Notes under the pieces: model-generated
Told to the model about the DNA's origin: nothing
The model's input: only the letters and a program-made list of their open reading frames with translations
Databases searched by the model: none
Program-made: the position numbers and the translations under genes
Shown: piece after piece, positions 25,758 to 30,059 of the stretch
Layout of the letters: every line of letters starts with the position of its first letter
Numbering within the stretch: the first letter of the stretch is position 1
Assembly (NCBI GenBank): GCA_017554185.1
Contig: JAFZIU010000103.1
Coordinates: forward strand, 1-32,854
Direction of reading: 5' to 3'
Origin: Spirochaetia bacterium
Lineage (GTDB): Bacteria; Spirochaetota; Spirochaetia; CADAEX01
DNA length: 32,854 nucleotides

Positions 25758-25787
25758 AATATATAATTTTACTTTTTTTCATGTCAA
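25758..25787 (-). promoter_or_regulatory. promoter of the Nudix gene
   Basis: On the minus strand, TTGACA (25782-25787), an 18-bp spacer and TATATT (25758-25763). The predicted start coincides with the ATG at 25751. Its -35 faces the -35 of the RNA promoter on the plus strand within the dyad TGTCAA-7-TTGACA. Confidence 0.65.
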
Positions 25788-25794
25788 TTATTAG

Positions 25795-25822
25795 TTGACA
25801 TATCCATTTTTTATGGTATATT
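25795..25822 (+). promoter_or_regulatory. promoter of the small twin-hairpin RNA
   Basis: TTGACA (25795-25800), a 16-bp spacer and TATATT (25817-25822) on the plus strand, with predicted start near 25829. The 43-bp interval between the Nudix start and this site is taken up by the two divergent promoters. Confidence 0.7.
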
Positions 25823-25828
25823 TTAAGT

Positions 25829-25885
25829 ATCATCCCAGTAGGCAAAGGCCTGCTGCCGCCTCACCAAAGGGTGGGGTTTTTTTTT
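25829..25885 (+). ncRNA. ~57-nt twin-hairpin RNA/leader upstream of the NYN gene
   Basis: Downstream of a strong promoter lie two hairpins: CAGTAGGC (25836-25843) with GCCTGCTG (25848-25855), and CCTCACC (25859-25865) with GGTGGGG (25870-25876). Both carry the same AAAG loop. The second is followed by nine T (25877-25885), so it is an intrinsic terminator. A ribosome site GGAGG follows five bases later for the NYN gene. It may be an attenuating leader, a riboswitch of a class I do not recognise, or an RNA antitoxin whose terminator sets the RNA-to-protein ratio. RNA boundaries are predicted only. Confidence 0.6.
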
Positions 25886-25900
25886 CTTTGGAGGTAAATT

Positions 25901-26494
25901 ATTACAAGAGTTGCTTTTTTTATTGATGGCTTTAATCTCTATCATAGCTTAAAGGAATATGCCCCTGATTGTAGGTGGCTAAACTTACGTAAGCTGTGTG
26001 AAACATATATTAATCCTCAGAAAGAATATATAACAGATATTTATTATTTTTCAGCCTTAGCAACTCACAAATCAGTTGATAATATTTATAAACACCAAAA
26101 ATATATTGCCCGCCTTAAAGCAGAGAATATTATTCCAATTCTTGGGAAATTCAAACGCAAAGATAAAATATGTCCAGTATGTAAAAGTGCATTTATTTCT
26201 CATGAAGAAAAGCAGACAGATGTAAATATTGCACTGAAAATTGTTGCAGAGGGAATTTTGGGGAAATATGACACAGGTATTCTTGTGTCAGGTGATACGG
26301 ATATGATTCCTGCAATACAGACAATTAAGATATTAGGTTTGCCTGTTAGAATAGGAGTTTTATTCCCACTAGGCAGAAAAACAAAAGAACTTGAAAACTA
26401 TGCTGATTTCTCTATAAAAATCAAAGAAAAAGAATTACGGGCAAGCCTTTTTGAAGCAAGTACCTCTCCCCAAGGTTGGGTTCCTGTTAAATAA
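25901..26494 (+). CDS. NYN domain (LabA/PIN-like) ribonuclease, apparent ATT start
   Basis: An intact frame of 197 residues. The N-terminal strand reads ITRVAFFIDGFNLYHS, the hallmark of NYN/LabA proteins; later acids are in KQTDVNIALKIV and SGDTDMIPAI, completing the metal-binding centre, and a CPVC motif sits near 85. These are PIN-like RNases. No ATG, GTG or TTG lies in frame before position 26258, deep in the domain, while a TAA at 25895 bars any upstream start. The only fitting initiation codons are ATT at 25898 or 25901; GGAGG (25890-25894) is six bases before 25901. It may be poorly expressed by design (AUU starts are known for infC), inactivated by a start mutation, or reflect a sequence error. 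Strongly AT-rich codon use marks it as accessory DNA. Confidence 0.75.
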   Translation: MTRVAFFIDGFNLYHSLKEYAPDCRWLNLRKLCETYINPQKEYITDIYYFSALATHKSVDNIYKHQKYIARLKAENIIPILGKFKRKDKICPVCKSAFISHEEKQTDVNIALKIVAEGILGKYDTGILVSGDTDMIPAIQTIKILGLPVRIGVLFPLGRKTKELENYADFSIKIKEKELRASLFEASTSPQGWVPVK

Positions 26495-26548
26495 GATTTT
26501 AAATGACAAAAAACTATCTTGTTTCTTATTAAGTCTGAACTTAGGTAA

Positions 26549-26584
26549 TTTAGCAGAGGTAGGATGCGGGCCTGCGATTTTTTT
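26549..26584 (+). terminator. hairpin + T-run element, copy 1
   Basis: Starts TTTAGCAGAGGTAGGA and ends CCTGCGA followed by seven T. GCAG and CTGC can pair. A near-identical element occurs at 27072-27108. Being 54 bp after the NYN stop, it probably ends that transcript. Confidence 0.5.
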
Positions 26585-26635
26585 GTGGTAAAAAATAGAT
26601 AAATGGATTATAATAAAAAAAGTTAGAGTTGTTCG

Positions 26636-26830
26636 ATGAATATAACTGATATTTCAAAAGATTTTACAATCGATGATATTCACATAATTAGAGAACATAA
26701 TTATGAAATGACAAAAGATCTATCTTTTGCAGAGCGCCATTGTTATTATAATGCAAAGGCTGATTCCTTTTTACATGAGTACAGTATTTCTGAAGAACCT
26801 GCAAAATTTGTTTCAGAGGAAACAGAATGA
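26636..26830 (+). CDS. small conserved-looking protein, possible antitoxin
   Basis: A 64-residue acidic protein with pattern DISKDFTIDDIHIIREHNYE followed by MTKDLSFAERHCYYNAKAD. From memory, short proteins with the FTxxDIHxIRExxYExTK pattern are common in gut Firmicutes and spirochaetes beside small toxin genes; I cannot verify this. No such toxin follows directly. A TATAAT at 26609-26614 may be its -10 box; its ribosome site is weak. Its stop overlaps the ATG of a 39-codon basic frame by 4 nt (ATGA). AT-rich composition. Function unknown. Confidence 0.5.
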   Translation: MNITDISKDFTIDDIHIIREHNYEMTKDLSFAERHCYYNAKADSFLHEYSISEEPAKFVSEETE

Positions 26831-26946
26831 AAATATGCCGAATCAAAAAGTATATTTTGCCAAAGTCTATATTAAAAACTCGCCAATCTCTATATCGAAA
26901 ATACGCCAAAGTCTATACTGAAAGCGTATATTTAAACCCATCGTAA
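26827..26946 (+). CDS. possible 39-aa basic peptide, coupled to the upstream small gene
   Basis: A short frame beginning MKICRIKKYILPKSILKTRQ, with many Lys and Arg. Its ATG overlaps the preceding stop as ATGA. It reads through the first cluster of 23-bp repeats, so the open frame could be a by-product of the repeat. The high charge and the coupling are the only arguments for a real gene. Confidence 0.25.
   Translation: MKICRIKKYILPKSILKTRQSLYRKYAKVYTESVYLNPS
26859..26927. repeat. 23-bp imperfect tandem repeats, cluster 1 (three units)
   Basis: Units start at 26859, 26882 and 26905, exactly 23 bp apart. Shared core GCCAA-x-x-TCTATA, then an AAA run near unit position 17-19. The same core (CCAAA-x-TCT, then TGAA) recurs in cluster 2. 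Because 23 is not a multiple of three, the conservation is not due to a repeated peptide. Confidence 0.6.
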
Positions 26947-27003
26947 TGAAGATTATTATTTGTTTTATAAGAAATTAAGTAAAAAATGTATCTATAAATT
27001 TTT

Positions 27004-27072
27004 TTCAAGCCCTTGGTTGAAAAATCTCCAAACTCTTGGTTGAAAAGTTGCCAAAGTCTGGAGTGAATATGT
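27004..27072. repeat. 23-bp imperfect tandem repeats, cluster 2 (three units)
   Basis: Units start at 27004, 27027 and 27050. Units 1 and 2 share CTTGGTTGAAAA; unit 3 reads GCCAAAGTCTGGAGTGAA, linking the cluster to the first. It is directly followed by the hairpin/T-run element at 27072 and then the large helicase-like gene. The 77 bp between clusters is AT-rich with no clear unit. Confidence 0.6.
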
Positions 27073-27108
27073 TTAGCAGGGGTAGGACTCTAACCTGCGA
27101 TTTTTTTT
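27072..27108 (+). terminator. hairpin + T-run element, copy 2
   Basis: TTTAGCAGGGGTAGGA leads into a GCAGG/CCTGC stem with an inner TAG/CTA pairing, followed by GA and eight T. It would end a transcript through the repeat clusters. It differs from copy 1 mainly in the 6-bp centre. Confidence 0.65.
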
Positions 27109-27144: not shown

Positions 27145-29205
27145 ATGATTGATCGATACTTTTATGAAAATTCGTTTTCTGGATTTCTTTCTCAATCTAA
27201 TGAAGAAATTTTCGGTATATTATCGTCAAATAATAATTTCAATTTAGTTCTTCAGCAAAAAGATGCATGGCTTGAAGAAATACCAATAATGAAAGATCTT
27301 ATAAAACATTTTTCAGTAGGGAGGATTATATTTGAATATTCTATTCCTAGGTTAGGGAAAAGGATAGATGTAGTTTTATTGTTCTCGGGGATTGTTTTTG
27401 TTCTAGAATTTAAAATTGGAGAAAAATCTTTTTTAACAAGTGATGTGGAACAAGTTTGGGACTATGCTTTGGATCTTAAGAACTTTCATGAAGCAAGTCA
27501 TGATAAAATAATTATTCCAGTTTTAATTGCAACAGATGCAAAAGAACGTTCATATAAGTATTCACCCTGTCGATATGATGATAAAGTTTTTGAACCTATT
27601 TGTACTAACAATGCTAGTCTGTATTCAATTATTAGAACGATATTAGATTCAAATAGTAATGATAATGAAGATCTTTTGTCTTGGGCTAATAGTAGATATT
27701 CACCAACCCCAACAATAATTCAAGCGGCAAGTGCATTGTTTAATAATCATTCTGTTGAAGAAATAACACGGAAAGAAGCATCTGATGAAGATTTAATAAA
27801 AACAAATAAATTTGTTATTGATGTTATTACCAAGGCTAAAACGAATAAAGAAAAAGCTATTTGTTTTGTTACTGGTGTGCCTGGAGCCGGAAAAACTTTA
27901 GTTGGATTACAGATTGCTATCGAACAATTTGATAAAACTGAATTAGGGAAAAGAGATCTTGCAGTTTATCTTTCTGGAAATTATCCATTGGTAAGTGTAT
28001 TAACAGAATCTTTAGCAAGAGATAAAAAGAGGAAAGAAGAACAGAAGAATAAAAAGAAATATCCAATTACAAAGGCTAGACGGGATGTTCATTCGTTTAT
28101 TCAGATTGTGCATCACTATAGAAATACTTTTTTGGAAAAAATTAAAGATCCAATACAGAATGGAATAATAGAAATTGATGAGTCAAAAATTCCTAAATAT
28201 AAAGATGATGGCTATGCAGAAGTAGAGCATGTTGCAATATTTGATGAGGCCCAAAGGGCATGGACCCAAGAGCAATTGTCTAGTTGGTTGAAGAGGAAAA
28301 AACATATTTCAAATTTTCCATATTCCGAGCCTGAATTTCTCATTTGGTCTTTGGATCAGAGACCGGATTGGGCTGTTATCATTTGTCTTGTCGGCGGAGG
28401 GCAAGAGATTAATACTGGTGAAGCTGGAATTGCAGAATGGATTAATGCTCTTAATAATAAATTCGCTCATTGGAAAGTATATATTTCAAATCAATTAACA
28501 GAAAAAGAATATGCAGAAGGAAAAGTAAAACAATTAATATCTAAAAATATTAATGTGATAGAAAATCCGTATCTTCACTTATCTGTTTCAATGCGTTCTT
28601 TCCGCTCAGAAAAGTTATCGACATTTGTTCATGAATTATTGGATTTAAATATTAAACAAGCTCAATCGTTATATGGTGAAATAAAAAATGTTTATCCAAT
28701 AGTTTTGACACGTTCTTTAAATGCAGCAAAGAAATGGTTGCGTGAAAAAGCTCGTGGTTCCGAGCGGTATGGAATGATAGTGTCTTCACAAGCTTATCGT
28801 CTTAAACCTTTGGCAATAGATGTTCGTTTTAAACCAGATACTGTTCATTGGTTCTTGGATGATAAAAATGATATCCGTTCTTCATTATTTCTTGAAGATG
28901 TTGCAACAGAGTTCGATATTCAGGGTCTTGAATTGGATTGGTCTTGTATTATTTGGGATGGGGATTTTAGATACTCTAATTCTGGTTGGAAAAACTATTC
29001 CTTTACTGGTAGTAAATGGAAGAACATTAGGGCTAATGAAAGAAAAATCTACCAACTTAATGCTTATCGCGTTTTGCTAACTCGTGCTAGACGAGGTATG
29101 ATTATAGTTGTTCCAGAAGGTTCTGATGAAGATGAAACACGTCTGCCGGATTATTATGACCCAACTTATGAATATTTAAAGCAGATAGGTTTGGAAACAA
29201 TATGA
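27145..29205 (+). CDS. PD-(D/E)XK nuclease-like + DUF2075 (SF1 helicase-like) protein
   Basis: A 686-residue protein. The N-terminal part has D75 (RIDVVLL), E88-x-K90 (VFVLEFKIG) and Q103, the pattern of PD-(D/E)XK nucleases. A P-loop ATPase follows: Walker A TGVPGAGKTLVG (243-254), Walker B VAIFDEAQRAW (363-373), a sensor-like ICLVGGGQEINTGE near 415, and a C-terminal LNAYRVLLTRARRG near 640, as in superfamily 1 helicases and DUF2075/Schlafen-type ATPases. It probably acts on nucleic acid; antiviral defence is a reasonable guess from neighbours. Very AT-rich codons contrast with flanking core genes. A TATTAT ends 8 bp before the ATG and no good ribosome site is seen. Its stop overlaps the next gene (ATGA). 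Confidence 0.82.
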   Translation: MIDRYFYENSFSGFLSQSNEEIFGILSSNNNFNLVLQQKDAWLEEIPIMKDLIKHFSVGRIIFEYSIPRLGKRIDVVLLFSGIVFVLEFKIGEKSFLTSDVEQVWDYALDLKNFHEASHDKIIIPVLIATDAKERSYKYSPCRYDDKVFEPICTNNASLYSIIRTILDSNSNDNEDLLSWANSRYSPTPTIIQAASALFNNHSVEEITRKEASDEDLIKTNKFVIDVITKAKTNKEKAICFVTGVPGAGKTLVGLQIAIEQFDKTELGKRDLAVYLSGNYPLVSVLTESLARDKKRKEEQKNKKKYPITKARRDVHSFIQIVHHYRNTFLEKIKDPIQNGIIEIDESKIPKYKDDGYAEVEHVAIFDEAQRAWTQEQLSSWLKRKKHISNFPYSEPEFLIWSLDQRPDWAVIICLVGGGQEINTGEAGIAEWINALNNKFAHWKVYISNQLTEKEYAEGKVKQLISKNINVIENPYLHLSVSMRSFRSEKLSTFVHELLDLNIKQAQSLYGEIKNVYPIVLTRSLNAAKKWLREKARGSERYGMIVSSQAYRLKPLAIDVRFKPDTVHWFLDDKNDIRSSLFLEDVATEFDIQGLELDWSCIIWDGDFRYSNSGWKNYSFTGSKWKNIRANERKIYQLNAYRVLLTRARRGMIIVVPEGSDEDETRLPDYYDPTYEYLKQIGLETI

Positions 29206-29747: not shown

Positions 29748-29801
29748 ATTTTGCTTCAATTTTTGAGAAAAAAAGTTGAAAAATTTTTAGGGAATAAAAA
29801 A
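29748..29801. repeat. island repeat, copy A (AT-rich block without hairpin)
   Basis: Starts ATTTTGCTTCAATTTTTGAG and ends GGGAATAAAAAA. Near-identical blocks occur at 30051, 30817 and, shorter, 31834. Here the usual hairpin is replaced by the TTGACA of the next promoter. Confidence 0.75.
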
Positions 29802-29802
29802 G

Positions 29803-29831
29803 TTGACATTTCATTTTGCGTGAAGTATATT
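29803..29831 (+). promoter_or_regulatory. near-consensus promoter of the ~88-nt RNA
   Basis: TTGACA (29803-29808), a 17-bp spacer and TATATT (29826-29831) on the plus strand; predicted start near 29838. Confidence 0.78.
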
Positions 29832-30059
29832 TTATTTAACTTGAGGGTTGTTACTCTCAGGGCCCGAAGGTGAAAGCTGTCGGGCAGCCATAAAGAGGTT
29901 CTCTTTTGAGAGCCTCTTTTCTTTTACTATATATGTTCCATAATTACCTTTATTATCTTCAATAACTACAACAAAACCATCATATGTGTTCATAACAGAA
30001 TTAAGCTTTCCGTTTATCCATTGGACTGCCTTATATACTGCAAAAATTTTAATTTTGCT
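29832..30059 (-). pseudogene. open gene fragment lacking a start, abutting the island repeat
   Basis: An open stretch of about 75 codons on the minus strand reads IFAVYKAVQWINGKLNSVMN then TYDGFVVVIEDNKGNYGTYI and runs to a TAA at 29832. The upstream side is a TGA inside the island repeat. The only ATG gives 53 residues. The first 50 residues look like real protein; the last 25 run through the small-RNA hairpins. It looks like a gene cut at its 5' end by the repeat, as the truncated Rpn was. Family not recognised. Confidence 0.35.
29838..29925 (+). ncRNA. unassigned ~88-nt small RNA
   Basis: Between a near-consensus promoter and a strong terminator. Predicted parts: a short TGAG/CTCA stem (29842-29859), a GCCCGA/TCGGGC stem (29862-29867 with 29880-29885), and an 11-bp terminator stem (29893-29903 with 29908-29918) with TTTT loop and trailing T-rich tract. 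No plus-strand gene follows, so it is not a leader. It overlaps, in antisense, the end of a gene fragment read on the other strand. I do not recognise its family. Confidence 0.6.

Follow-up and report, generated by a model that had tools for sequence, protein, structure and literature searches.

The NYN-type RNase gene at 25901-26494 of the window (the whole stretch of 32,854 nucleotides of contig JAFZIU010000103.1 that was analysed) is probably one half of a two-part module, the other half being a separately transcribed twin-hairpin RNA of ~56 nt that would partner the RNase in trans and would most likely be its antitoxin; toxicity of the protein, its binding by the RNA and its inhibition are inferred. 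There is also a reasonable case that the locus belongs to a large and undescribed class of RNA-protein modules, spread over at least 15 phyla and present on plasmids and viral contigs as well, in which twin-hairpin RNAs of ~50 nt hold NYN/PIN RNases. The partnership itself is well supported by sequence comparison, the twin-hairpin RNA being strongly associated with the HEC-09 subfamily of NYN proteins.

The locus and its surroundings

The first-pass annotation had described a promoter, two hairpins, the second ending in nine T, a ribosome-binding site and a PIN-like RNase, and all of these are present in the window in that order. The features are as follows.

25771..27101: segment missing at the same site in congener G003 (L193; flanks 74-77% identity)
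25795..25822, + strand: sigma-70-type promoter of the RNA, TTGACA-16 nt-TATATT, 11/12 matches, TG upstream
25795-25800 and 25817-25822, + strand: promoter boxes TTGACA and TATATT
25829..25885, + strand: predicted ~56-nt twin-hairpin RNA (folding, covariance model R2)
25830..25835, + strand: 5' leader UCAUCC, single-stranded, G-poor
25836..25855, + strand: hairpin 1, CAGUAGGC AAAG GCCUGCUG, 8 bp (folding, covariation)
25858-25877, + strand: hairpin 2, 8 bp, AAAG loop (folding)
25877-25885, + strand: nine T after hairpin 2
25858..25885, + strand: hairpin 2 plus the nine T, an intrinsic terminator between RNA and NYN gene
25890..25895, + strand: Shine-Dalgarno sequence GGAGGT, 5 nt ahead of the ATT codon
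25901..26494, + strand: NYN/PIN-fold RNase of the HEC-09 subfamily, 197 aa, apparent ATT start
27145-29205, + strand: Schlafen-group-3 helicase, PADLOC defence candidate PDC-S41 (4.4e-270)

The start of the RNA was inferred to lie 6-7 nt past the -10 box and its end was placed within the T-run. Nested fold predictions gave two plain hairpins that are adjacent and not alternative to one another. Taken alone the fold of the window RNA stands out only mildly from chance (z = -2.3, with 4 of 200 shuffles equally good), and it is because of the comparative evidence, the single-sequence fold being weak, that it is accepted as real.

In profile searches the frame 25901-26494 matched Pfam NYN (PF01936) at 5.4e-11 and PADLOC HEC-09 at 2.7e-43, so that membership of both families is established above cut-off and with the conserved acidic residues. 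The acidic residues named in the first-pass annotation are present, and D9, E102, E103, D107, D132 and D134 are invariant across 36 relatives. An AlphaFold2 model of the protein (pLDDT 95) has an NYN/PIN-type fold, and its sole confident PDB match was 2qip, VPA0982 of Vibrio parahaemolyticus (E 1.8e-9, TM 0.63/0.76, 18% identity). What the first-pass annotation missed is the start of the gene: ATG, GTG and TTG are absent near the 5' end of the frame and the codon at the proper distance from the Shine-Dalgarno sequence is ATT (25901-25903), whereas the genes of close relatives begin with ATG or GTG. This suggests a rare start codon, a disabled toxin gene with weak or lost expression, or an assembly error.

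The NYN gene was absent from six congeners. In one of them, G003, the position equivalent to 25770 is joined almost directly to that of 27102, from which it follows that promoter, RNA and NYN gene form a single indel of 1.33 kb; as judged by this alignment, RNA and gene have been gained or lost together in the window's genus. GC content around the locus is about 0.30 (vs 0.50), and the PDC-S41 helicase gene that follows has a counterpart at the equivalent position in two congeners, with about 74% DNA identity. An element that matches the 3' end of tRNA-Met in reverse complement occurs twice, at 26549-26584 and 27072-27107, with a T-run after each copy, and a related 25-mer lies within a tRNA-Met gene on contig C36 of genome G000; it is possible that these copies are attachment-site remnants beside the NYN insert. 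Degenerate tandem repeats of ~23 nt (GCCAAAGTCTATATTAAAA and similar) occupy 26859-27064, and congener G001 (L195) has a related array in the corresponding position. Further downstream, between two Rpn-family nuclease genes, 29801-29925 (+ strand) forms a second unit of promoter, hairpins and terminator (TTGACA, three hairpin-like segments and TCTTTTC); this unit is 85% identical in congener G004 (L205), is partly repeated on contig C32 of G000 and had no Rfam match. It is a candidate for another small RNA, one that to judge by its score of 10 bits with the NYN RNA model is not related to the NYN unit.

Conservation of the twin-hairpin RNA

Loci were fetched or counted from 47 relatives in a genome collection, 40 profile-matching Spirochaetota genomes, 407 plasmid records and 68 viral contigs, the last two figures being taken as signs of mobility. 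The version carried by E. coli was present in 12 of 5,426 complete genomes and was always plasmid-borne. Nearly every upstream region that was read has the same order of elements: a promoter-like site, then a short leader poor in G, hairpin 1, hairpin 2 after a linker that is mostly 0-3 nt long, and finally a T-run. A twin hairpin at dG <= -15 precedes 95 of 99 non-redundant HEC-09-like NYN genes, compared with 80 of 200 other genes (40%) and 21 of 109 shuffled sequences (19%), and at the stricter dG <= -23 the corresponding figures are 77 of 99 (78%), 22 of 200 (11%) and 3 of 109 (3%). The expectation of the first-pass annotation that covarying twin hairpins would be kept upstream of NYN genes was therefore met within the subfamily; distant NYN proteins had a twin hairpin at about the control rate. 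By record titles the genome loci belong to at least 15 phyla, which include Spirochaetota, Cloacimonadota, Omnitrophota, Planctomycetota, Bacteroidota, Pseudomonadota, Chloroflexota, Acidobacteriota, Campylobacterota, Verrucomicrobiota and Gemmatimonadota, with the caveat that a few assemblies may be misbinned. A promoter with at least 9 of 12 matches was found at 37 of 60 relatives' RNAs (mean 9.0 vs 6.8 in shuffles), its -10 box usually ending about 10-17 nt ahead of hairpin 1, and in the leaders of 94 loci, divergent copies likewise, G is rare and C is frequent at -4 and -1.

The RNA persists beside several broken NYN genes (L022, L040, L065, L070, L089 and L090) and intact NYN genes without it are rare (L155 and L185), but errors of metagenome assembly may account for part of these stops and frame breaks. 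At L090, whose genome lacks an intact copy of the gene, the match to the covariance model sits directly ahead of a decayed NYN start. The gene at L022, from an Aerophobetes assembly, has a single in-frame TAA near residue 28 and is otherwise intact, with the RNA kept.

Covariation was first seen in hairpin 1, at all 8 consensus pairs of an earlier alignment. MAFFT and RNAalifold applied to the first 27 RNAs retrieved hairpin 1 only, because the units differ in length. In the alignment designated A2 (16 sequences) double changes were found in 15 of 19 pairs and the covariation score exceeded that of all 500 shuffles, hairpin 1 covarying at 10 of 10 pairs and hairpin 2 having double changes at 5 of 9. 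Across 46 loci all four Watson-Crick pair types occur at most stem positions. The RNA is, on these alignments, a conserved and covarying structure that has been kept while the sequence of its stems varies almost freely. The loops are another matter: the identical AAAG loops to which the first-pass annotation drew attention do exist in the window, but among the 46 loci loop length and sequence differ, and the match in the window is consequently a coincidence.

A covariance model, R2, was built from the second alignment with both hairpins written in by hand. The window RNA, which had been held out of it, was recovered with E 7.8e-6 from 432 kb and with 6e-7 from the window. Over 85 loci (432 kb) R2 matched almost solely beside NYN genes and recovered at least 14 held-out RNAs. 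Of 20 genomes from many phyla that carry the NYN gene, 19 had the NYN-linked RNA as their top genome-wide match. The training set of R2 covered only a part of the family and other RNA subtypes escape it, and when it was applied with strict filters to 296 genomes it missed even the RNA of the window, so the lack of a match in that scan means little. The other matches from the scan of 296 genomes that were inspected (L091-L099) appeared by eye to be terminators, repeats or coding sequence, and no NYN gene was found at them. In the ~20 loci searched against Rfam, the window included, no family reached its gathering threshold at the RNA; weak matches below threshold to Thr_leader, sRNA71 and a plastid 3'UTR family were obtained on plasmid loci.

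Divergent copies, tandem units and the role of the RNA

The most informative exceptions are about 12 loci (L024, L026, L030, L033, L036, L041, L084, L151, L160, L164, L173 and L200) in which the RNA is encoded on the strand opposite to that of the NYN gene and points away from it, with hairpin 1 at 28-73 nt from the NYN start in the 11 that were measured. Most of these RNAs have a promoter-like site, clearest at L026 (TTGACT-19-TATAAT) and L200, and the C just ahead of hairpin 1 is kept in all but one of 11. On a quick tree of 96 proteins the orientation requires at least six changes. Judged by this arrangement the twin-hairpin RNA is a transcription unit of its own and cannot be solely a cis-acting leader or attenuator, and a ratio of RNA to mRNA set by the terminator cannot apply in the divergent loci. 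The number of units also varies. The window and most loci have one, but two are found at L020/L127 and L174 and three at L131 (all six hairpins predicted, z -8.7), L143/L144 (spacing 52 and 50) and L139. On plasmids of 3.5-4.3 kb from E. coli and Klebsiella (L080-L082) the NYN gene comes after two units and a terminator that is separate from them, the fold on the L080 plasmid having a z of -6.2; NZ_CP080176 is an example of the E. coli plasmids, at 3.55 kb.

A first question is whether the hairpins could be nothing more than intrinsic terminators that happen to lie ahead of the gene. With 40% of control genes passing the laxest threshold and a z of only -2.3 for the window the idea has some basis, but it is scarcely credible in the face of the strict thresholds, the specificity of the model, the covariation, the conservation of the leader and the divergent copies. 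A cis-acting leader that sets expression of NYN, as attenuator, riboswitch or autoregulatory target of the RNase itself, is harder to dismiss. Most loci are co-directional with the terminator a median of 23 nt ahead of the gene, and in those loci read-through must set NYN expression. However, the divergent copies, for all their separate orientation, keep leader and hairpins, tandem multiplication would be useless for attenuation, and the two hairpins of the folds are not alternatives to each other. Simple attenuation or an unidentified riboswitch, the alternative offered in the first-pass annotation, is ruled out as the sole role by the divergent copies, and in its broader form the cis explanation remains unlikely. 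Divergent copies and tandem units together favour, in so far as gene arrangement can decide, an antitoxin-like RNA acting in trans.

Two other roles in trans have to be considered. The C-rich single-stranded leader and, in some loci, a G-rich ribosome site beside it might indicate that the RNA is antisense to the NYN mRNA in the manner of a type I system, but predicted pairing with a locus's own start region was no better than with the genes of other loci (-23.8 vs -23.2 kcal/mol, mean rank 0.47). Membership of type I was rejected for this reason, and we consider an antisense role very improbable. The RNA could instead be a required cofactor or activator, the NYN protein being active only with RNA bound, and the strong association, the trans arrangement and the covariation fit this equally well. 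It nevertheless seems to us a minority possibility. The RNA lacks a variable, guide-like stretch, and tandem units and a terminator between RNA and gene are easier to understand as providing an excess of inhibitor. The RNAs beside broken genes, which a cofactor role does not favour, and the rarity of intact genes without RNA suggest that an antitoxin is the better fit, but few loci are involved and assembly errors may contribute.

If the RNA is an antitoxin, the module may be envisaged to work as follows. Transcription from the promoter would yield an abundant, terminated twin-hairpin RNA, and occasional read-through of the terminator a little RNase mRNA. The RNA would bind the NYN RNase and inhibit it; loss of the RNA, through loss of the plasmid or shut-off of transcription by a phage (both triggers are inferred), would free the RNase, which would then presumably cut cellular or phage RNA. 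Inhibition by RNA and release on its loss are inferred from type III systems and from AbiF/RCd22.

Comparison with known systems and implications

Type III loci consist of a promoter, an RNA antitoxin, a leaky Rho-independent terminator and an RNase gene, with the antitoxin kept in excess (PMC5086642). The NYN locus has the order of elements of ToxIN, CptIN, TenpIN and AbiQ (PMC5086642), its unit of ~50 nt resembles the TenpI and CptI repeats of 50 and 45 nt (PMC12373285), and the likeness extends to tandem units in some relatives and to an occurrence on chromosomes, plasmids and viral contigs. An RNA upstream with a Rho-independent terminator is present in the window and most relatives, about 12 being divergent. 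The type III-like layout proposed in the first-pass annotation thus holds across the NYN subfamily, with covarying stems; toxicity, RNA binding and inhibition are inferred. There are, however, clear differences. Type III toxins have the MazF-like ToxN/CptN/TenpN fold, whereas the toxin candidate here has an NYN/PIN fold; type III antitoxins are tandem repeat arrays, whereas the window and most NYN loci have a single unit; and the NYN RNA is, in nested predictions, two plain adjacent hairpins, the second usually the terminator itself, with no pseudoknot seen. A type III antitoxin RNA folds into a pseudoknot that binds and neutralises the toxin, and its precursor is cleaved by the toxin. The contrast with type III repeats had been noted in the first-pass annotation and stands for most loci, but the tandem units of some relatives partly remove it. 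Since the fold of the toxin differs and most loci lack a repeat array, the module is not type III by the definition of PMC5086642. Its layout is nevertheless like that of type III and its working principle probably is too, its activity being inferred.

The best functional precedent is AbiF/RCd22, described in 2025, in which a toxin other than ToxN is held by an RNA that binds the protein in cis and in trans (PMC12373285). In it, as at the NYN locus, a non-ToxN toxin is preceded by a terminator and by a structured RNA, here one in which motifs are repeated; the protein is of the Abi_2/AbiD/F family and the RNA motif is another one. The window protein matched NYN only and its RNA had no Rfam match, so that an AbiF-type module was rejected. 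Abi_2/AbiD/F proteins are HEPN-type, and PIN-type toxins are known in type II systems, whose antitoxins are proteins. An NYN protein associated with CRISPR in Bacteroides fragilis is a Mn-dependent endoribonuclease, and, unlike the NYN-RNA module, it adjoins cas6 in a type III CRISPR locus and has a proposed role in crRNA trimming (PMC11346440). HEC-09 itself (Hma-embedded defence candidate) comes from a 'guilt-by-embedding' screen in a preprint cited in PMC12988326; it is the same protein family as the window NYN, modelled as a single gene with protein only. No RNA component of HEC-09 was found in the literature searched, though a mention in the source preprint is not excluded. A search for NYN proteins with an RNA antitoxin or non-coding RNA, which did not cover preprints, likewise returned nothing.

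If the proposed module is confirmed, NYN/PIN would be the third toxin fold under RNA-antitoxin control, after ToxN and AbiF, and RNA antitoxins that are single-unit or divergently transcribed would be seen to exist. A widespread defence candidate modelled as a single gene gains an RNA partner, and those who test HEC-09 must include the RNA or deliberately omit it; should the RNA be an antitoxin, expression of the protein alone would be expected to give toxicity or escape mutants and not defence. The versions on small E. coli plasmids are directly testable in the laboratory, and the divergent copies and varying numbers of units are natural experiments on what is required of the RNA.
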